NCBI GenBank assembly: GCA_036002485.1
Contig: DASYTI010000041.1
Location: 1-46,933 of the forward strand
DNA length: 46,933 bases
From: Candidatus Methylomirabilota bacterium
GTDB lineage: Bacteria > Methylomirabilota > Methylomirabilia > Rokubacteriales > CSP1-6
Reading direction: 5' to 3'
The notes below the pieces were generated by a model that worked only from the letters and a program-made list of their open reading frames with translations, searched no databases and was not told the origin of the DNA. Positions 18,791 through 42,494 of this stretch are shown one piece after another; the stretch's first letter is position 1; each line of letters begins with the position of its first letter. The translations under genes and the position numbers were made by a program.

Positions 18791-19990
18791 GTGAGCCAGA
18801 CGGCTGACGTGGTGGTGGTGGGCGGGGGCGTGAACGGCGCCAGCATCGCCTATGCGCTGGCCGCGCGGGGCGTGAAAGTCGTGCTGGTCGAGAAGGGCGC
18901 TCTGGCCAGCGGCGCCTCGGGACGATCGAGCGCGCTTGTTCGCATGCACTACACGAACGAATGGGACGCCCGGCTGGCCTGGGCCAGCTTCCCCGTGTTC
19001 AAGCACTGGACCGAGCTCATGGGTGGCCCCCCGGTCTTCACCCATACCGGCTTCGTGAATGTCGTGGCGCCGCGGTACGCGGACAACCTGCGGCTCAACG
19101 TCGAGATGCTCCAGGGCCTGGGAGTCAATACGACCGCCCTCACGGGCCAAGAGCTGAAGGAGCTCCAGCCCTTCGCCCATGTCGACGATGTCGGCGCGGC
19201 CGCCTATGAGCCGGAGAGCGGCTATGCGAATCCCGCGGAGACCGTCGAGGGTTTCCGCCGGCGGGCCACAGAGCTCGGCGCGCGCATTCTCCCGTGGACG
19301 GCGGTGACGCGCGTGGTCTGCGAGGAGAGCCGGGTGACCGGGGTCGAGACCTCGGCCGGACGCATCGACGCGGGCAGCGTGATCGTTGCGGCCGGCGCGT
19401 GGTCGACGCGGCTGTGTCAGGAGTTCGGCCTGGCCCTTCCCGCGCGGCCCAAGGCCATTGACACGGTCGCCGTGACGCGACCCCCCGAGCTTCGCGACCC
19501 GCACATGATCTTCATCGACAATGTCCAGGGAAACTACTTTCGCCCGGAGGCGGGCGGGCTGACCCTCGTGGGTGTCCCGTGTCAGGAGTGGGACATCGAG
19601 CCGGACACCCTGGGAACCGGCCTGCCTCCGCAGGCGTCCGATCTCGGCGCCCGGCTTCTCATGCATCGCATTCCGTCGATGGAGCGCGCGACCTTGGCCC
19701 GCGGATACCGGGCCTTCGATGGGTACAGCGCGGATCGCCACGCGATCCTGGGACGAGTGAACGGACTTGACGGTCTGCTGCTCGCCACCGCCTTCAGCGG
19801 CTCCGGGTTCAAGATCGCGCCCGCCGTCGGCATGTGCATGGCAGAGCTCGTCACCGAGGGGTGCGCCAAGACCGTCGACATCGAGCCGTTCAGCCTCCGC
19901 CGCTTCGCCGAAGGCCGGACGGTCGAGGGGCCCTATCCCTATGCCGTGCGGCCCGACTACATCGATCCCCAGACGACAGCCGGCGTCTAG
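18791..19990 (+). CDS. FAD-dependent oxidoreductase of the DAO / sarcosine oxidase beta type
   Basis: This 399-residue flavoprotein has the dinucleotide-binding motif GGGVNG at residues 11-16 after VVVV. It then has LVEKGALASGASGRSSALVR, the FAD-contact segment of sarcosine oxidase/DadA-like enzymes, IVAAGAWSTRL and the C-terminal LLATAFSGSGFKIAPAVG motif. It would oxidise a secondary or tertiary amine such as sarcosine, dimethylglycine or an N-alkyl amino acid, giving an imine. The start is a GTG. Its TAG stop is part of the inverted repeat that begins at 19987. Confidence 0.9.
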   Translation: MSQTADVVVVGGGVNGASIAYALAARGVKVVLVEKGALASGASGRSSALVRMHYTNEWDARLAWASFPVFKHWTELMGGPPVFTHTGFVNVVAPRYADNLRLNVEMLQGLGVNTTALTGQELKELQPFAHVDDVGAAAYEPESGYANPAETVEGFRRRATELGARILPWTAVTRVVCEESRVTGVETSAGRIDAGSVIVAAGAWSTRLCQEFGLALPARPKAIDTVAVTRPPELRDPHMIFIDNVQGNYFRPEAGGLTLVGVPCQEWDIEPDTLGTGLPPQASDLGARLLMHRIPSMERATLARGYRAFDGYSADRHAILGRVNGLDGLLLATAFSGSGFKIAPAVGMCMAELVTEGCAKTVDIEPFSLRRFAEGRTVEGPYPYAVRPDYIDPQTTAGV

Positions 19991-22204: not shown

Positions 22205-22825
22205 TCAGCTCGCTCGCGCCGCGAGGTGACGCGCGGCCTGAAAGCCCTTGAGAATCATGATCACCACGAAGACGTGGAAGCCCAGGCCCAGCCAGTCGTG
22301 GGCGAGAACGGAGATGAGACCGTCGAGCCCATAGAGACTGACGCCCAGGAGGAAGGCCCAGGCATGTCCGCGAACCGCGCGGGTGCCGAGCAGCACGAAG
22401 CCGCCGATCAGGGGCCCGTCGAAGAGAAGCGCGGCCGTCCAGCCGCGGCCCGCCCGAGCGGCCAGCGCGTCGACGATCTGGGTCATGCCAAGCCCGATGA
22501 TGAATCGCCAGTCCTGCCCGGCGAAGGCCAGGACCGAGTTGACGAGCGACAGCGAAGCGATCCAGTAGAACCAGAACGCGCCTCGCCGGCTCTGCGCCTC
22601 GAGCTGCTGCTGCTCGGTGCTCGCGGGCGCGGCCGCCACGGTCGTCGCGGGGGAGGCTGGTGATGCGGGCGGCGCAGGAGGAACGCTGGTGACGAGTCGA
22701 ACGGCGGGCGCGGACGCGCCCATGCTCGTGGCTCGAGGCGCAGCCGGAGGCCCGCCGGGAGCGGGCCGCTTGAAAGGGCTCGGTCCGTCTATCCGCGGGC
22801 CTATGGGGGCTTCAAGTGGCTCCAT
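22205..22825 (-). CDS. Membrane protein with a Pro/Ala-rich N-terminal tail
   Basis: This 206-residue protein has a low-complexity proline/alanine-rich cytoplasmic tail of about 75 residues and then four or five membrane segments (WFYWIASLSLVNSVLAFAGQ onward). I recognise no family with confidence. The last helices contain VFVVIMILKGFQAARHL. It is the first gene of the operon ending with the J protein. A GGAGG lies seven bases before the ATG, and two inverted repeats lie directly upstream. Confidence 0.75.
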   Translation of the reverse strand: MEPLEAPIGPRIDGPSPFKRPAPGGPPAAPRATSMGASAPAVRLVTSVPPAPPASPASPATTVAAAPASTEQQQLEAQSRRGAFWFYWIASLSLVNSVLAFAGQDWRFIIGLGMTQIVDALAARAGRGWTAALLFDGPLIGGFVLLGTRAVRGHAWAFLLGVSLYGLDGLISVLAHDWLGLGFHVFVVIMILKGFQAARHLAARAS

Positions 22826-22837
22826 GTGCGCACCTCC

Positions 22838-22886
22838 GTCACCGCCGGTGACAATCCTGTGCAGTCCGGGGGTCTTTCAGACCCGG
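22838..22886 (-). promoter_or_regulatory. Two stem-loops in the leader of the membrane-protein operon
   Basis: GTCACCGCCGGTGAC (22838-22852) is a perfect 6-bp-arm palindrome just upstream of the Shine-Dalgarno of the gene starting at 22825. CCGGGGGTCTTTCAGACCCGG (split here: arms CCGGG-GTCT and AGACCCGG, 22866-22886) is a second hairpin with a short loop. They could be an operator or a structured leader. I could not match them to a known riboswitch. Confidence 0.4.
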
Positions 22887-22936
22887 TTCTGGGCGTCCTA
22901 GCGGTAAGAGGCAAACCATGTGCCATGGGCAGCCGC

Positions 22937-23129
22937 CTAGATGTCTATCCGAGTAATTCCCATGCCCTCGCGAGCAGGAATGTTCCGCTTCGAGCGCCGG
23001 CTTCGCCGGCGCAGTTCTCAGATTGCTCGCCTCGGACGGTGGGGCCCCAGCCCCACGACGTCCTGCGGCTCGCACGGCGTCGGGGGGAGGCTTCGGAAGG
23101 GGGGCGGAGCCCCCCTCCGAGCTACCTAG
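22937..23129. repeat. Multi-hairpin repeat family B, copy 2
   Basis: This copy of about 190 bp runs from CTAGATGTCTATCCGAGTAA to GAGCTACCTAG. It contains the same hairpins as the copy at 2098: GCGCCGGC/GCCGGCGC, GTGGGGC/GCCCCAC and GGGGGC/GCCCCC. CCTAGAT occurs at both ends (22936-22942 and 23125-23131) and may be a target duplication. The right end contains the TAG stop of the permease gene at 23126. Confidence 0.85.
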
Positions 23130-23986
23130 ATCCCGCGCTCGAGACGCGGATCGAGCAGATCGCGGAGCCAGTCCCCCACGAGGTTGATGCCAAGGACGAC
23201 CACGAGGATGGCCAGTCCCGGGAAGAGGGCGAGCCACCAGCCCGTGGTGAGGTAGTTGCGCCCCTCGTCCAGCATGGCCCCCCAGCTCGGCGCCGGTGGC
23301 GGCAGGCCGAGGCCGAGAAAGCTCAACGATGCCTCGGCGATGATCACGCGCGCGATGGAGAAGGTCGCCACGACCACGATGGGCGCCCAGACATTCGGAA
23401 GGATGTGACGGAAGATCAGGTATCGGTCCGCCGCCCCCAGGGCACGGGCGGCCTCCACGAAGCCGCGCTCCTTGAGCGAGAGCGTCTCGCCGCGCACGAT
23501 GCGCGCATAGGTGATCCACCCGCTGACGCCGAGCACGAGGATCAGGTTGGCCAGGCTGGCCCCGAGCACGGCGAGGAGGGCGATGCCGAGCAAGAGCACG
23601 GGAAAGGCCAGCTGGATGTCGCCGAGCCGCATGAAGAGGTCGTCGGACCACCCACCGCGGTAGCCGGTCCAGAGCCCGATCGGCACGCCCAGGATCGCCC
23701 CGATCATCACCGCGGTGAGCCCGATCCAGAGCGAGACGCGCGCGCCATAGAGGAGCCGGCTCAGGACGTCGCGGCCCAGGGTATCGGTCCCGAGCGGATG
23801 CGCGCGGTCCCCACCCTCGAGCCACATGGGAGGCGACAAGCGTCCGAGCAGATCGTTCGTCACGGGATCCGCCGGCGACAGGACGGGCGCCATGACGGCA
23901 GCGATCAAGGCCGCGGCCAGCGCGAGCAGGCCGAGGATGGCCGCGCCGTCACGACCCAGCCGCCGCGCGGCGCCCGCGCGCGGCAT
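23126..23986 (-). CDS. Peptide-type ABC transporter permease (DppC/OppC-like)
   Basis: This 286-residue inner-membrane permease has HPLGTDTLGRDVLSRLLYGA, the signature of DppC-type subunits, the EAA loop (FVEAARALGA...RHILPN) that contacts the ATPase, and LSFLGLGLPPPAPSWGAML. About six membrane segments are visible. Its ATG overlaps the stop of the DppB-like gene (TGATG). The open frame extends far upstream in the same register, but that is an antisense shadow. No ATPase gene is found in this operon. Confidence 0.9.
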   Translation of the reverse strand: MPRAGAARRLGRDGAAILGLLALAAALIAAVMAPVLSPADPVTNDLLGRLSPPMWLEGGDRAHPLGTDTLGRDVLSRLLYGARVSLWIGLTAVMIGAILGVPIGLWTGYRGGWSDDLFMRLGDIQLAFPVLLLGIALLAVLGASLANLILVLGVSGWITYARIVRGETLSLKERGFVEAARALGAADRYLIFRHILPNVWAPIVVVATFSIARVIIAEASLSFLGLGLPPPAPSWGAMLDEGRNYLTTGWWLALFPGLAILVVVLGINLVGDWLRDLLDPRLERGI

Positions 23987-24909
23987 CAGGAAAGCCGGAC
24001 CCGCGGATCGACCACCGCGTAGAGGAGGTCCACGGCAAGGTTGACGAGCACGAAGATCAGGGCGAAGACGAAGACGCCGGCCTGGATGACGGGAAAGTCG
24101 CGGCCCGGTATAGCCTGGACGATGAGGCGCCCGAGCCCCGGCCACGAGAAGACGGTCTCGATCACGATGGCGCCGCTGAGCATGAAGCCCACGGACAGAC
24201 CCGTGACGGTCAGGAACGGGATGGCCGTGTTCCAGATCGCGTGTCGATAGAGGATGAGGCGCTCCGGCAGTCCCTTGGCGCGCGCGGTGCGGATGTAGTC
24301 CTGGGGCAGGACATCCAGCAGCCCGGCGCGGAGAAGACGCACATTCTGGGCGAGGGGGGCCGCGGCCAGCGTCACCGCGGGCAGGATCAGGTGTCGCCAC
24401 GTTCCCGCGCCGTACGCGGGCAAGAGCCCGTTCAGCTGGACGGCGAAGAGAAGGATGAGCACGAGCCCGAGCCAGAAGCTCGGCATGGACTGGAGAAACA
24501 GCGAAGCGAGGCGACTGAGATGGTCGGGCGCTCGATTCTGATGGGTGGCGGCCACGATGCCGAGCGGGATGGCGAGCAGCGTGGAGAGCATGGTGGCCGC
24601 CACGGCCAGCTCGACGGTGGCCGGCCAGAGATGCTCGAGCACGAGCGGCATGGCCGGGCGCCGCTGCTGGATCGACTGCCCGAAATCCCCCCGCAGCATG
24701 GCGACGAGGAAGTCCAGGTACTGGACATGCCACGGGCGGTCGAGCCCCAGAAGGTGACGGGTATGAGCGATCTCCGCCTGGGTGGCCGAAGGATCGACGA
24801 GGAGCGCGGTGGGATCGCCGGTGAGGCGGACGAGAAAGAACACCGCGGTCACCACACCCCAGACGACGAAGAGGGTGTGGAGCAGCCGACGCAGGAGAAA
24901 GCGCGGCAT
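23986..24909 (-). CDS. Peptide-type ABC transporter permease (DppB/OppB-like)
   Basis: This 307-residue permease starts MPRFLLRRLLHTLFVVWGV and has the usual LGLDRPWHVQYLDFL, the EAA loop (YIRTARAKGLPERLILYRHA) and the ETVFSWPGLGRL motif of DppB subunits, with six membrane segments. It would pair with the DppC-like product to form the channel. It follows the binding-protein gene after nine bases in the same transcription unit. Confidence 0.92.
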   Translation of the reverse strand: MPRFLLRRLLHTLFVVWGVVTAVFFLVRLTGDPTALLVDPSATQAEIAHTRHLLGLDRPWHVQYLDFLVAMLRGDFGQSIQQRRPAMPLVLEHLWPATVELAVAATMLSTLLAIPLGIVAATHQNRAPDHLSRLASLFLQSMPSFWLGLVLILLFAVQLNGLLPAYGAGTWRHLILPAVTLAAAPLAQNVRLLRAGLLDVLPQDYIRTARAKGLPERLILYRHAIWNTAIPFLTVTGLSVGFMLSGAIVIETVFSWPGLGRLIVQAIPGRDFPVIQAGVFVFALIFVLVNLAVDLLYAVVDPRVRLS

Positions 24910-24918
24910 CCCGGCCCG

Positions 24919-26547
24919 CTACTTCGTCAGGGTCACTCCGCGGAAGTCCATGTTGAGCTCGGTCAGGGGCGTGAAGTTGACGACCCGAGGGCTGTGGGCA
25001 TAGATCTTGATTTCCTGGTAGAGCGCCACGACGGGGGCCCAATCGCGGACGCTGCGCTGGAGATCGGCAAGGAGGGTGAGGCGCTTGCGTGGGTCGAGCT
25101 CCCGCCGGGTGGCCTTGTAGAGATCGAGGAGCTCCGGCGGATACGGCGCCCAGTTGATCAGTGAGAGCGCCGTCCAGTCCCGCAGGTAGTCGTCAGCGTC
25201 CAGGTTGTTGCTGGTCCGGCAGCCCGTGAACCCACCGTCATGGGGCAGGGTACCCTTAGTCAGCGTCTGCAGCAGCGTGGCGAAGTCGATGGGCTTGATG
25301 GTGACCTGGACCCCGAGGCCCTTCAGCATCTCGGCCACGGCCAGCGTCACCTCGTCGAAGGCCTGCCCGTAGTGCTTGCTCGGGAAAAGGAGCTGGAGGG
25401 CCAGGGGCGTGCCGTCCTTCTCGAGGACGCCCCGTCCGCCGCGATCCCGCCAGCCCGACTCCGACAGCATGGCCTTGGCCCGCGCGATGTCGTAGGCGTA
25501 TGGCTCTTGCGCCGCGTATCCTTGGGAGACGCTGGAGACGGGTGAGGCATTGGCCAGGGCATAGCCATGGAAGACCTTCTTGATGATGGCATCGCGATTG
25601 ACGGCGAGATTGAAAGCCATGCGGACGCGCGCGTCCGTGAAGAGCCCATCCCGGCCGCCGGAGTCGAAGGCATCCTTGGTCCGCCCGTTGAGGTACAGGC
25701 GGCAGTGGAGCTTCTGCGGGCTGCTGACGATCTTCACGGTGGGATCACGCGCCAGCACGGTGGCGTCGAGCGGGAGCACCGCGTCCACGAGACCGACCTG
25801 GCCCGCCCGCAGGGCGGCGACCCTCGCCCCCGCTTCCGGGATGACCTGGAGTCGCAGGCGGGCGAACTGCGGCGGGACGCCCCAGTAGGCGGAGTTTCGC
25901 TCGAGCCGCATGGAGTCCTTGCGCTTCCACTCCACCAGCTTCCAGGGTCCCGTCCCCACCGCGCGGTCGTTGAGCGCGTCGACCCCGTTCTTGATCGTGT
26001 AGTCCTTGGGGACGAGCGGCTCCCGGCCGATGAAATCCCAGAGGTTGGGGGAGGGATCGCTCGTGTGAATCCGTACCGTGAGGTCGTTGACCTTTTCCCA
26101 TCGCGTCACGAACGGGAAGGCCTTCTCGAAGGAGGTGGCGGCGGCCACGTCCTTGACGCCCCAGCGATCCAGATTGCGCCGAAACATGCGGTCGAGGTTG
26201 AAGAGCACGGTGTCGGCGTTGAAAGGCTCGCCATTGTGGAAGGTGACGCCCGGGCGCAGGGTGAACTCCCAGGCCAACGGGCTCACGGCCTTCCAGGACA
26301 GGGCCAGGCCTGGCCCCGGCTTGCCGCGGACGTCGACATCCACGAGGCTCTCGTAGACCTGTCGGATGTACGTGGAGCGAATGGAGCCCATGCCGATGCG
26401 CGGGTCCATGTTCGTGGTGTCGTCGGGGAGCGCGACGATGAGCTCGCCCTCCGCATCGGCGGCGGGGTGCGCGGGGCTGGCCCCCAGCAGGATGGCCAGA
26501 GTGAGGAGGGTCAGGGATCGGACTCCGCTTCGCGTCCTCTGCATCAT
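24919..26547 (-). CDS. Extracellular solute-binding protein, family 5 (peptide/nickel type)
   Basis: This 542-residue lobed binding protein has a secretion signal (RSLTLLTLAILLGASPAHPA) and the family-5 signatures NMDPRIGMGS, YESLVDVD, FTLRPGVTFHNGEPF and RVRMAFNLAVNRDAI. Two adjacent ATGs are possible (26547, 26544), preceded by GAGAGG. It is first in the operon with the two permeases. Ligand could be a peptide, nickel complex, opine or glutathione-like compound; the sequence does not tell. Confidence 0.9.
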   Translation of the reverse strand: MMQRTRSGVRSLTLLTLAILLGASPAHPAADAEGELIVALPDDTTNMDPRIGMGSIRSTYIRQVYESLVDVDVRGKPGPGLALSWKAVSPLAWEFTLRPGVTFHNGEPFNADTVLFNLDRMFRRNLDRWGVKDVAAATSFEKAFPFVTRWEKVNDLTVRIHTSDPSPNLWDFIGREPLVPKDYTIKNGVDALNDRAVGTGPWKLVEWKRKDSMRLERNSAYWGVPPQFARLRLQVIPEAGARVAALRAGQVGLVDAVLPLDATVLARDPTVKIVSSPQKLHCRLYLNGRTKDAFDSGGRDGLFTDARVRMAFNLAVNRDAIIKKVFHGYALANASPVSSVSQGYAAQEPYAYDIARAKAMLSESGWRDRGGRGVLEKDGTPLALQLLFPSKHYGQAFDEVTLAVAEMLKGLGVQVTIKPIDFATLLQTLTKGTLPHDGGFTGCRTSNNLDADDYLRDWTALSLINWAPYPPELLDLYKATRRELDPRKRLTLLADLQRSVRDWAPVVALYQEIKIYAHSPRVVNFTPLTELNMDFRGVTLTK

Positions 26548-26678
26548 CGCGTCTGTCCTCTCGTTGGGGCCTGCCACGGTGGTGAGCCGAGCCGTTCGAG
26601 CCGGATGGGGCTCCCACTACACACCAACCCGAGCGCCCCTGTCAACGCGGGTCCTGGGCCAATTTGCTTCGCCACATT

Positions 26679-35885: not shown

Positions 35886-37103
35886 CTAAAGTAGCTTCGC
35901 GTCGTAGGGATACGCGCAGATCAGCTTGGGCCCGTCTTTCGTCACGAGCACCTGGTCCTCGAGCTTGACGCCGAAGGGCGCGCCGACCTTGCCCGCATAG
36001 CACTCGAGGCACAGCACCATGTTCTCCTTGAACTCGCGCTGGGGCATGATTCGCCGCGGCCCCCTCGTGTCGTCAGGGTAGGGAATGCCGGGGCCTTCAT
36101 CCTCGAGCCCCGCCTGGTGCACCATGGTCGGATAGCGCTGGGCCGCGTACGCCTCCGGCAGGCGAGGCGCCTTGCCCGCGAACTCCTTGAAGGTGATCCC
36201 CGGCCTGACGAGCTCGTGCATGCCCATGACGCAATCGTAGGCGACGCGATACGCCTCCTTCTGCTCGGGCGTGGGATGGTCGCCACACAGAAAGGTCCGC
36301 GAGACGTCGATGATGTAGCCTTCGTAGCCGTGGGCATCGGTGTCCACGCCGACCAGGTCACCCGGTTGCACCGTCTTGTCGGTGGCCTCGGTCAGCCATG
36401 GATTGGTATTGGTGCCCGAGGAGACGAGCCGCGTGAAGAGGCCTTCGCCGTGGCGGCGGAGGAGGGCATCGCTCAGAACCGCGAGCAGCTCGTACTCGCG
36501 GATGCCGGGACGAATGGCTGCCTCGAACTCGGCCAGGACGGCGTCGCCGATCCCGCCGTTGATCGCGAAGAGCTGGACTTCCTCCGGCGTCTTGACCTCG
36601 CGCGCATCGACGCTCGCCGGGAGCACCTCGACGATGGGTATCTTCTCGTCCTGGAGGGCGAGGAAGCCGGTGGTGTCGAGTCTGTCGACGGCGAGGCGCT
36701 CGTGCTCGAGGCCGAACTCGGCGAGGGTAGCGCGAATCGAGCGCGCCCACTCGCGGGCCTTGTCGCGCGCGGCGAGCCCGCCGTACTGCCACGTGTAGGC
36801 CGGGCGCACGTCGGCCACGACCTTCTGGGAGACGTGGACCGAGCCCTTGTACTCGAAGAGAATGGGCGCGCCCTCGGCCGGGACGATGCAGTAGCGCGCG
36901 AAGGTGCCGGCCGTCCACACCCCCATGACGTCCGCCCCCGTCGCGTAGCGGATGTTCGCCGTGGTATAGAGAAGCGCGACGGGCAGATCGTGCCGCTTCA
37001 TCATCGTCTGCAGGCGCGCGAGCCTGCCCGCGCGGAGCTTGGGGAAGTCGATCTCGCTGCGGTTCGGCATCGTGAGCTCAGGGGCGCGGGAGTGATCGAG
37101 CAT
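35886..37103 (-). CDS. M24 metallopeptidase-family protein, DddP (DMSP lyase)-like
   Basis: This 405-residue creatinase/aminopeptidase-fold protein has an N-terminal domain with NIRYATGADVMGVW and a C-terminal pita-bread domain. Metal ligands are Asp254, Asp256 and Asp266 (VDTDAHGYEGYIID), His329 (MVHQAGLEDE), Glu367 (VLCLECYAG) and Glu382 (VKLEDQVLVT). This set, with two Asp in DTD, matches the spacing I recall for DddP (Asp295, Asp297, Asp307, His371, Glu406, Glu421). Asp335 is six residues after the His, like the DddP catalytic Asp377. Xaa-Pro peptidases lack this exact pattern. DddP splits dimethylsulfoniopropionate into dimethyl sulfide and acrylate. A shorter start at 37070 is possible. 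Function remains inferred. Confidence 0.75.
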   Translation of the reverse strand: MLDHSRAPELTMPNRSEIDFPKLRAGRLARLQTMMKRHDLPVALLYTTANIRYATGADVMGVWTAGTFARYCIVPAEGAPILFEYKGSVHVSQKVVADVRPAYTWQYGGLAARDKAREWARSIRATLAEFGLEHERLAVDRLDTTGFLALQDEKIPIVEVLPASVDAREVKTPEEVQLFAINGGIGDAVLAEFEAAIRPGIREYELLAVLSDALLRRHGEGLFTRLVSSGTNTNPWLTEATDKTVQPGDLVGVDTDAHGYEGYIIDVSRTFLCGDHPTPEQKEAYRVAYDCVMGMHELVRPGITFKEFAGKAPRLPEAYAAQRYPTMVHQAGLEDEGPGIPYPDDTRGPRRIMPQREFKENMVLCLECYAGKVGAPFGVKLEDQVLVTKDGPKLICAYPYDAKLL

Positions 37104-37788
37104 GGGCCAGAGCATAGCGCATTCTGATCGGCCTGAGAGAGGGGCCATCCTGCGTCGATTCCTGATCGCCCTGGAGAGCGCGCTGGCCGCCTCGGCCGCC
37201 GGTGACCAGAGCACCGCGGCGCCGCTCGGCGAGTTCGCCCGCCTCACGCGCTCGATCGACGCGACGAGCCGCTGGCCGGGCCGCAACGTCTCGCTGGAGC
37301 GTCTCCCCGTCTGCCGGTTCTGGGAGAGTGCCCTGGAGGCGGGAGTGGGCGGTCCCGCGGAGCCACTCATCTCGGCTCTTCGGGAGCTCGGGCCGTCGCT
37401 ATCGTGGGCGCAGAACCCGAACTACCGGCGCCACCCTCCCGGTCCGACGTTTCTCGACAACTACGGCTACGCCGTCATCGTCGGACCCGCCGACGGACCG
37501 CCGGCCATCGCGGTCGATCCGCGCCTGGCCCTCGGCGTGCTTCTCCTCGGGCCGGGGACCCATTACCCGCGGCACGAGCATCCGGCGATCGAGATCTACT
37601 TCACGCTCACCTCGGAAGGGGAGTGGTGGAAGGGAGCCGGGCCGTGGCGCCGAGAGCCGCTGGCCACGGCCATCTATCACGCGCCGAACGTGCCTCACGC
37701 GACGCGCGCCGGCAGCTCGCCGCTCCTCGCGCTTTATCTGTGGAGCGGCAACCTCGCGACTCACGCGAAACTGACTCCTGCTGACTGA
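37102..37788 (+). CDS. DddQ/DddL-type DMSP lyase family cupin
   Basis: This 228-residue protein has a helical N-terminal half and a C-terminal cupin. The metal-site stretch THYPRHEHPAIEIYF gives His160, Glu164 and Tyr166, with His199 in NVPHATR. This matches, as I recall it, the ligand spacing in DddQ (His125, Glu129, Tyr131, His163), where Tyr131 is the catalytic base. Tyr155 and His158 correspond to DddQ Tyr120 and His123. The end LLALYLWSGNL is also family-like. The ATG follows GGGAG and shares a CATG with the divergent M24 gene. Activity on DMSP, or on another propionate-type compound, is inferred; the family (PF16867, from memory) has many untested members. Confidence 0.75.
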   Translation: MGQSIAHSDRPERGAILRRFLIALESALAASAAGDQSTAAPLGEFARLTRSIDATSRWPGRNVSLERLPVCRFWESALEAGVGGPAEPLISALRELGPSLSWAQNPNYRRHPPGPTFLDNYGYAVIVGPADGPPAIAVDPRLALGVLLLGPGTHYPRHEHPAIEIYFTLTSEGEWWKGAGPWRREPLATAIYHAPNVPHATRAGSSPLLALYLWSGNLATHAKLTPAD

Positions 37789-37977: not shown

Positions 37978-38955
37978 TTGACGGCGCCAGCGGACAGGGG
38001 TAGGGTGGCCTCCACCGTGGCGCGATTCGTGCTCAAGCACCTGGCTTTTCTGCTCCTCACGCTCCTCGTGGTGTCCTTCCTCGTCTTCACCCTCAACGAG
38101 TTTTCCCCGGGCGACGTGGCTCGGAAGATCCTGGGCGCCTACGCGACCCAGGAGCAGGTGGAGATCCTCACCAAGGAGATGGGCCTCGATCGCCCGGTCC
38201 TGGTTCGTTACGTCGAGTTCCTCGGCAAGCTCGCCTCGGGTGATCTCGGGAACTCGACCCGCTTCAAGGTGCCGGTCAAGGACATCATCTGGAGCCGGCT
38301 GGCCAATACCGCCTTTCTCGCCGCGCTCGCCTTCGCCTGCATCGTGCCCCTGTCGATGCTCCTCGGCATCGCGGCTGGGATGCGCGAATCCTCGCCCCTC
38401 GACCGCGCCATCCTGATCTTCAGCACCGTGGTCGCCTCGGTCCCGGAGTTCGCCCTCGGCGTCTTTCTCGCCAGCGTCTTCGTCGCCGCGCTGGGCTGGC
38501 TTCCCGGCACGGCCACGCTGGTGGCGGGCGGCGGTTGGTCCGTTGCCTCGCAGCTCGTGCTGCCCGTCGCCGTGATCGTGCTCTTCGACGCCGGCTACGT
38601 CGTCAGCATGATCCGCGCGTCGATGATCGAGGTGATGCAACGCCCCTACATCCGCACCGCCGTGCTGAAGGGCATGAGCTTCCGCCGGGTGGTCGTCCGC
38701 CATGCCCTCCGCAACGCGATGATCAATCCCGTCACCGTGATCCTCCTGCAGATCAACTATCTGATCTCGGGCGTCGTCGTGGTCGAGACGGTCTTCGCAT
38801 ACCCGGGCTTCGGCCGCATGATGCTCGAGGCCGCGCTCTTCAAGGACATCGCACTCGTCGAGGTCGGCGCGCTGGTGGCCGTCGGGGTCGCGGTCATGAC
38901 GCAGATCCTCGGCGATCTGGCCTACATGCTGCTGGATCCGCGCATCCGGGCCTGA
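37978..38955 (+). CDS. Peptide-type ABC transporter permease (DppB-like)
   Basis: This 325-residue permease has a TTG start by context (a GTG at 38005 is an alternative). It contains LGLDRPVLVRYVEFLGKL-like text (MGLDRPVLVRYVEF), GDLGNSTR, an EAA loop (YIRTAVLKGMSFRRVVVRHA) and VETVFAYPGFGRM. Six membrane segments are visible. The DppC-like gene follows after nine bases. The substrate is unknown; no binding-protein gene is in this cluster. Confidence 0.9.
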   Translation: MTAPADRGRVASTVARFVLKHLAFLLLTLLVVSFLVFTLNEFSPGDVARKILGAYATQEQVEILTKEMGLDRPVLVRYVEFLGKLASGDLGNSTRFKVPVKDIIWSRLANTAFLAALAFACIVPLSMLLGIAAGMRESSPLDRAILIFSTVVASVPEFALGVFLASVFVAALGWLPGTATLVAGGGWSVASQLVLPVAVIVLFDAGYVVSMIRASMIEVMQRPYIRTAVLKGMSFRRVVVRHALRNAMINPVTVILLQINYLISGVVVVETVFAYPGFGRMMLEAALFKDIALVEVGALVAVGVAVMTQILGDLAYMLLDPRIRA

Positions 38956-38964
38956 GGCGCGCGC

Positions 38965-39853
38965 GTGTCCGTTCCCACCACCGTCGAAGGTCTTCCCGCG
39001 GTTCCTGCGCAGGTGCCGCTCGGCTTCACGCGGACCTGGGCGCGCCGTCTCGGGCGTCTCCGCGAGTCGAGGCCCGCCCTGATCGGCGTGGGCATCATCG
39101 CCTTCTGGGTGATGGCGGCGGTGCTGGCCCCGGCCATCGCCCCGTATCCGCCCAATGCCAACAACATGGCCGCGCTCGCGCACCCCACCCCGTCGGTCGC
39201 TCACTGGCTCGGCACCGATCACCTCGGGCGGGATCTCCTCTCGCGCATCCTGTGGGGCGCGCGGACGGTGCTGACGGTGGCGCCGCTCGCCGTGCTGGGC
39301 GCGGCGATCCTGGGCTCGCTCCTCGGGCTGATGGCCGGCTACTACCGCGGCGTCATCGATCTCGTGATCATCCGCGCGTGCGACATCGTGCTGTCGTTCC
39401 CCGTGATCATCCTCTACATGATCATCCTGGCCCACTTCGGCTCCTCGGCCCTGAACATCATCGGCGTGCTCACCCTGACCAAGGCCCCCATCATCGCGCG
39501 CATCGTGCGAGGCCTCACCATCGAGCTGCGGGAGCGGGAGTATGTGGCCGCCGCGAAGATGCGCGGCGAGTCGCCGCTCTACATCATGCTCGTGGAGATC
39601 CTGCCCAACGCGCGCGGGCCCCTGATCGTCGACATGTGCCTGCGCACCGGCTACAACGTCGTGATCATCGGGGCGCTGGGATTCCTGGGCATCGGCCTGC
39701 CCCCGCCCGATCCCGACTGGGGCGGCATGGTCAAGGACACCTACGGCATGATGTCGGTCTGGCCGCACATGGCGCTCTTCCCCTGCGCGGCCATCTCCTC
39801 GCTCGTGATCGGCTTCAACCTCCTGGCCGTCGGTCTCCGCGAGATCGGCCTCC

Positions 39854-39861
<8 letters not shown>
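38965..39861 (+). CDS. Peptide-type ABC transporter permease (DppC-like)
   Basis: This 298-residue permease has a GTG start. It has the DppC signature HWLGTDHLGRDLLSRILWGA, an EAA loop (YVAAAKMRGESPLYIMLVEI) and GFLGIGLPPPDPDWGGM. It lies between the DppB-like gene and the fused ATPase, whose GTG start overlaps its stop by eight bases, so translation is coupled. Confidence 0.92.
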
Positions 39862-41891
<2,030 letters not shown>

Positions 41892-41902
<11 letters not shown>

Positions 41903-42494
41903 TGAAGTGGGCCTCGGTGGTCCGCCCCGTCCGGCCGTTGATGGGCAGGATGTCCTGCGGACAGGCGGAGAACGCGACGACCAGATCGATCTCCGCGCGA
42001 AAGACCGCGTAGCTCCCCGGCGTGGAGACGGGCTCTCCCCACGCGAGGGTCCCGTCGGCCGTCCAGGGAATGTTCATGAACAGGTTGAGCGGCGACGGCG
42101 TCGCGGGGACCGTGATGCCGAGGCCCGCGAGTCCCGCGTGCAGATTGTCCCGGCAGTTGTCGTGATGGCCTTCGACCCCGAGCAGGCGGTAGCGCGGAAC
42201 GTCGCAGGCCGCCATGAGCGTGTCGTGGGCGCCCCCCGAGGTATCCTCGACCAGCGTCAGGATCGGACGCCGCTGGTTCGTGAGGAACGTGTCGCCCACG
42301 GCGGCCCGCAGCTTCATGAACCACGCGCGGCTGGCCTCCATCGACATCCACTCCGTGACGTCGCGCGCGCTGAACGCCCACGTGTCGACCACCTGCGTGC
42401 CGTGGGTATTGATGATCTTGACGCGCTGGCCGGCGGCCATCCGCGCGGCCGCGCCGCGCCGGGCGGGGATCGTGAGGAGCTGCGTGGTCGCCAT
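41892..42494 (-). CDS. DUF1989 protein (urea-carboxylase-associated / carboxyguanidine deiminase-like), short subunit
   Basis: This 200-residue protein contains DUF1989 features: VDTWAFSARD, the motif His90-Asp91 with Cys97 (AHDTLMAACD), a second Cys114 (HHDNCRDNL) and LNLFMNIPW. DUF1989 pairs are encoded with urea or guanidine carboxylase; CgdA and CgdB, two such proteins, form carboxyguanidine deiminase. Here the partner is the gene at 42651. AAGGAGGAAGG precedes the ATG. No carboxylase gene lies in the window. Confidence 0.82.

Follow-up and report, generated by a model that had tools for sequence, protein, structure and literature searches.

Described DMSP lyases and the gene pair in the window

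The DddP and DddQ families contain the enzymes that free dimethyl sulfide (DMS), the gas of the sea smell, from an algal compound, dimethylsulfoniopropionate (DMSP). The roles of the DddP residues are documented (PMC4108388, PMC5395565), and an origin by recruitment out of other pathways has been proposed for DMSP lyases, whose Km values are millimolar (PMC5395565). Demethylation of betaines is served by BHMT-type and GbcAB enzymes (PMC12478193). Sinorhizobium meliloti and Ensifer carry a cupin annotated as "dimethylsulfoniopropionate lyase" that is linked to an Opp-type transporter; no established function for it was found in the literature, and no description of an M24-cupin pair was among the results listed by a search mainly outside subscription journals. 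A 2018 paper in Biochemistry reportedly dealt with DMSP lyase-like cupins of unknown function.

In the window, which is the whole 46,933-nucleotide stretch analyzed, genes for an M24-fold metalloenzyme and a cupin diverge from a short gap, and genes for an Opp-type transporter follow the cupin gene (Table 1). The host metagenome-assembled genome (MAG) clusters with Candidatus Rokubacteria MAGs, from a soil phylum. The initial annotation had proposed that two folds known to contain DMSP lyases are encoded back to back here, and profile searches bore this out, with E values of 4.9e-66 for the M24 protein against the DddP model and 5.5e-32 for the cupin against the Pfam DMSP lyase family. These E values and a head-to-head arrangement kept in nine genomes of four genera show that the pairing is no accident.

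Table 1. Coordinates of the gene pair, the adjoining transporter genes, and other genes of the window mentioned in the text
Feature	Coordinates	Strand	Remarks
M24-fold DddP-like metalloenzyme	35886..37070	minus	394 aa from MPNRSE; open frame 35886-37370 = 494 aa
Gap between divergent M24 and cupin start codons	37071..37101	none	31 bp
DMSP lyase-like cupin (PF16867)	37102..37788	plus	228 aa
OppB-type ABC permease	37978..38955	plus	start codon uncertain
OppC-type ABC permease	38965..39861	plus	
Fused OppD-OppF ABC ATPase	39854..41902	plus	two ATP-binding domains
DAO flavoprotein	18791-19990		
Second Opp-type importer	22205-26577		includes SBP_bac_5 gene, 24919-26577
First DUF1989 gene	41892-42494		
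Second DUF1989 gene	42651-43703		

Residues and family placement of the M24 protein

The closest solved structures to the M24 protein are two DddP proteins, from Ruegeria lacuscaerulensis (4rzy) and Roseobacter denitrificans (4b28), and its best NCBIfam match is the DddP model NF043017. Alignment to 4rzy predicts a complete set of six di-metal ligands (Asp243, Asp245, Asp255, His318, Glu356, and Glu371 in the 394-residue numbering) and a candidate base, Asp324, at the position of DddP Asp377. The initial annotation had claimed DddP-type spacing for Asp254, Asp256, Asp266, His329, Glu367, Glu382, and Asp335; the spacing holds, and each number is 11 too high because the start was taken at MLDHSRAPELT instead of MPNRSE. 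Two residues that it had missed, Trp52 and Tyr313, are equivalent to DddP Trp95 and Tyr366 and are candidates for contact with an onium group. All nine residues of the DddP-type set (W, D, D, D, Y, H, D, E, and E) are kept in 12 of 12 full-length Rokubacteria M24 proteins, whereas the Xaa-Pro dipeptidase compared lacks the equivalents of Asp297, Tyr366, and Asp377. Identity as an Xaa-Pro peptidase (M24B) is not supported, given the presence of these three equivalents and the peptidase models, which score the protein at 59 bits or less compared with 223 bits for DddP. A creatinase-like function, prompted by the sarcosine-oxidase-like neighbors found in relatives and by the two DUF1989 genes, was weakened by the retention of all metal ligands, since creatinase is not known to use them.

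The 223 bits lie far under the equivalog cutoff of 600 bits for NF043017, on which a Paracoccus yeei DddP scores 850 bits, and none of 95 genomes of the phylum held a protein over this cutoff; membership in DddP proper was not borne out. The Rokubacteria proteins make up a separate clade of the M24 tree, which is sister to a clade containing bona fide DddP together with rhizobial and other proteobacterial proteins, and the Xaa-Pro dipeptidase and other M24 proteins branch outside. DddP is nested in this sister clade with GbcA-linked and Ensifer M24 proteins (support of 95/92 and 96/93). Forcing the Rokubacteria proteins and DddP alone together was worse by 19.9 log-likelihood units (p-AU 0.063), so that this grouping is disfavored but not rejected. 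Because several branches are long, the tree placement is a lead rather than proof. A structure prediction from five close sequences gave a mean pLDDT of 34. The residues and matches support assignment of the M24 protein to a broad DddP-like family with a complete catalytic set; its soil phylum and the betaine-type neighbors of its relatives further distinguish it from DddP.

Residues, fold, and tree of the cupin

The cupin matches Pfam family PF16867 with 111 bits over residues 59 to 210, above the gathering score of 27 bits. Its metal and catalytic set (Tyr155, His158, His160, Glu164, Tyr166, and His199) is complete and aligns to three solved DddQ chains, with every residue number exactly as the initial annotation had given it for the DddQ spacing. 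The pattern Tyr-x2-His-x-His-x3-Glu-x-Tyr ... His is shared with DddQ and DddY (4la2, 4b29, 5cu1, and 5xkx), as is the arrangement of N-terminal helices and cupin fold in an AlphaFold model of modest confidence (mean pLDDT, 57.5). The top seven structural matches of this model are DddQ and DddY proteins, matched along its full length (172 to 212 residues; Z scores, 11.4 to 12.4), and the next match has a Z score of 8.4 over 91 residues only. In contrast to this likeness, identity in the structural alignments is 14 to 21%, and the window cupin is linked to an Opp importer. In a tree whose references were DddQ only, the cupin falls, with weak resolution, in the same large clade as the three DddQ chains but in a distinct subclade. 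Membership in a broad DddQ-like family with a complete catalytic set is supported by these comparisons.

Conservation and gene context within the phylum

Conservation was surveyed in 95 genomes of the phylum. An M24 orthologue occurs in 13 of them, exactly the 13 that match the DddP model at 1e-40, and the divergent M24-cupin pair is kept in nine, from four genera, with one copy cut by a contig end and start codons about 31 to 37 bp apart in most relatives. Every genome with the cupin also has the M24 gene (9/9; hypergeometric probability of 6e-10, which ignores shared ancestry). No cupin adjoins the M24 gene of the thirteenth carrier, G026. Three M24 genomes have lost the cupin but retain the other module genes, and the cupin is therefore not essential to the pathway; this suggests an accessory or partly redundant enzyme. 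Only remnants of the two ends of the cupin remain between the M24 gene and the BHMT-like gene in these genomes, which belong to three genera (L067, 2779-2887; L068, 9808-9985; L070, 9289-9373), and judging from these remnants the losses are internal deletions.

Wherever the contig reaches far enough, relatives also have OppB, OppC, and fused OppDF genes after the pair, and the peptide-type transporter noted in the initial annotation is thus real and conserved. The DinB gene that it had listed as a companion is common to the window and its nearest relative, G004, only; DinB, amidohydrolase, VOC, and DUF1989 genes were excluded from the module because only the nearest relative has them. The two DUF1989 genes, of the urea-amidolyase-associated/TMAO-demethylase N-domain family, adjoin a gene for a Peripla_BP_6 binding protein.

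The conserved order in relatives is M24, cupin, BHMT-like, OppB, OppC, OppDF, SoxB-like, SoxA-like, and DAO, with the BHMT-like gene immediately before OppB in nine relatives and, 3' of OppDF, two sarcosine-oxidase-like subunits (SoxB-like and SoxA-like) and a further DAO oxidoreductase. BHMT-like and SoxB-like orthologues are found in the same ten genomes, all of them M24 positive (2.8e-11 for the BHMT-like gene within M24 genomes, again ignoring shared ancestry). Such co-occurrence counts are not independent because all of the close orthologues lie in one phylum. The BHMT-like protein belongs to PF02574, has BHMT1 as its best solved match (4e-57), and retains the zinc cysteines in an alignment in which Trp44 is replaced by Tyr and Tyr160 by Thr. 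These two positions, which we take to be betaine contacts in BHMT, differ, and the methyl donor may for that reason not be glycine betaine.

The window genome has only the M24-cupin-Opp half of this module, and its copy lacks the genes that are most telling as context. No substrate-binding protein (SBP), BHMT-like, or SoxB-like orthologues of the module were found in its MAG, which is 95.7% complete. In the nearest relative, a block of SBP, BHMT, SoxB, and SoxA genes lies on a contig separate from the pair. The absence of this block from the window MAG may reflect either a missing contig or a true loss. About 10 to 18 kb upstream of the pair, the window encodes another Opp-type importer, which has a separate SBP_bac_5 protein, and a DAO flavoprotein that is 37% identical to the third DAO of the module.

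Opp systems most often import peptides or nickel, and M24-fold proteins are mainly hydrolases. The M24 protein might on these grounds hydrolyze Opp-imported N-methylated peptides, amides, or esters, with the freed N-methyl amino acids handled by the BHMT-like and sarcosine-oxidase-like branch and with the cupin step unrelated. We consider this unlikely, given that the M24 protein keeps the residues missing from the dipeptidase compared and scores so much lower with peptidase models, and it would not account for the repeated association of the M24 protein with a cupin from a lyase family.

The initial annotation had read the locus as a terrestrial lyase system for DMSP or an analogue. Its complete catalytic sets, the cupin fold, and the link of the pair to a transporter stand, and a related onium substrate for the two enzymes is plausible; DddP-proper membership and DMSP as the substrate are not supported. 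A locus in which both proteins split DMSP (or DMSOP) into DMS and acrylate would fit the complete residue sets and the DddQ/DddY-like predicted model of the cupin, and BHMT-type enzymes can in principle accept methyl groups from dimethylsulfonium donors. The distance of the M24 protein from DddP, in both profile score and tree, makes this distinctly improbable, as do neighboring genes that process N-methyl groups. Cleavage of DMSP calls on an acryloyl-CoA reductase, AcuI, that detoxifies acrylate, and no AcuI/YhdH protein over its cutoff was found in the 95 genomes.

Counterparts outside the phylum

In S. meliloti, Ensifer adhaerens, and S. sojae, the cupin lies at an Opp operon. The cupins of S. 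meliloti and Ensifer are about 41% identical to the window cupin and share with it the order cupin, OppB, OppC, and OppDF, preceded by an SBP gene in E. adhaerens and, on pSymA, in S. meliloti. E. adhaerens also has an M24 gene, convergent and at the opposite end from that in the window, so that cupin and M24 flank the Opp operon. Unlike in the Rokubacteria module, no BHMT-like or sarcosine-oxidase-like genes were seen at the S. meliloti/Ensifer cupin locus. The S. meliloti M24 gene is elsewhere on pSymA, where its neighbors are an MttB-family gene, a glycine betaine ABC system, and a gene with a sarcosine-oxidase/GcvT-like product. Close to the operon with Opp and cupin genes, S. meliloti and S. 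sojae encode a histidine ammonia-lyase-like protein whose N terminus resembles a signal peptide (L062, 3599-5239; L104, 3569-5209).

Rhizobial clusters for betaine N-demethylation also encode PF16867-type cupins, along with a DddP-like M24 protein that keeps every residue of the DddP-type set. The Rhizobium M24 gene comes immediately after a GbcA-like gene (415 bits) and a GbcB-like gene (about 320 bits), both below the respective cutoffs of 670 and 500 bits, and the Rhizobium johnstonii cluster further includes two PF16867-type cupins, ETF, an NADH:flavin oxidoreductase, and formaldehyde genes. A GbcA-like gene is near the M24 gene in Paraburkholderia as well. These rhizobial clusters would demethylate by a Rieske oxygenase, whereas the Rokubacteria module would use BHMT- and sarcosine-oxidase-type enzymes, and their cupins form a subclade separate from the window cupin. 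The second cupin of the Rhizobium clusters, annotated as DMSP lyase family (L078, 10281-10982; L082, 10305-11003; L099, 13247-13942), lies close to an intact copy and retains almost none of the metal ligands, with F, H, Q, R, F, and F at the six positions; it is possibly a noncatalytic partner.

The equivalent of Asp377 is kept in the Rhizobium M24 proteins but absent from those of S. meliloti, Paracoccus, and Ensifer. Because the M24 proteins by MttB or the Ensifer Opp operon are without some DddP residues, betaine context and DddP chemistry may not coincide. Judged by gene content, these loci have in common that they would import and demethylate quaternary ammonium compounds. The M24 protein and cupin of the window could instead have no common substrate and adjoin each other only through shared ancestry within the Rokubacteria, in line with close orthologues that all fall in one phylum. 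The renewed sharing of loci by M24 proteins and PF16867-type cupins in E. adhaerens and R. johnstonii, along with the 9/9 co-occurrence (ancestry ignored), makes this very unlikely.

A proposed module for betaine uptake and catabolism

We favor the explanation, with a probability of roughly 0.55, that the locus belongs to a module that takes up and catabolizes a quaternary onium compound, with an N-methylated betaine as the likeliest candidate. Such betaines are indicated by the BHMT-like, sarcosine-oxidase-like, GbcAB-like, MttB, and glycine betaine ABC transporter genes near the relatives and counterparts, and the neighbors together with the lack of an over-cutoff AcuI in the phylum favor an N-methyl over an S-methyl substrate. 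The substrate of both enzymes would probably be a betaine from plants or soil and not marine DMSP. As deduced from neighbors and residues, the Opp-type ABC transporter would import the onium compound, and the M24 protein and cupin would act as metal lyases that hold the substrate carboxylate on the metal. A proton would be abstracted by an Asp (M24) or a Tyr (cupin) and the onium group ejected or otherwise cleaved, by analogy with the action of DddP and DddQ on DMSP. The BHMT-like enzyme of relatives would then move remaining methyl groups to homocysteine, and their sarcosine-oxidase-like flavoproteins would oxidize remaining methyl groups.

Soil bacteria in which both folds occur together with genes for taking up and demethylating betaines offer a concrete candidate, open to experiment, for a reaction related or ancestral to DMSP cleavage, and they caution against tallying soil homologues labeled "DMSP lyase" as DMS producers. 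A more specific form of the betaine explanation, which is tentative and on balance doubtful, is that the M24 protein and cupin are C-N lyases that release a tertiary amine by elimination from a betaine of plant or soil origin and that marine DddP, perhaps also DddQ, derived from such enzymes. In the clade that contains DddP, there are already several M24 proteins whose genes lie in betaine clusters. The bona fide DddP of P. yeei (850 bits; L098, 7836-9185) is encoded on a plasmid of human skin origin, where it adjoins mandelate-racemase-like and hydantoinase genes.
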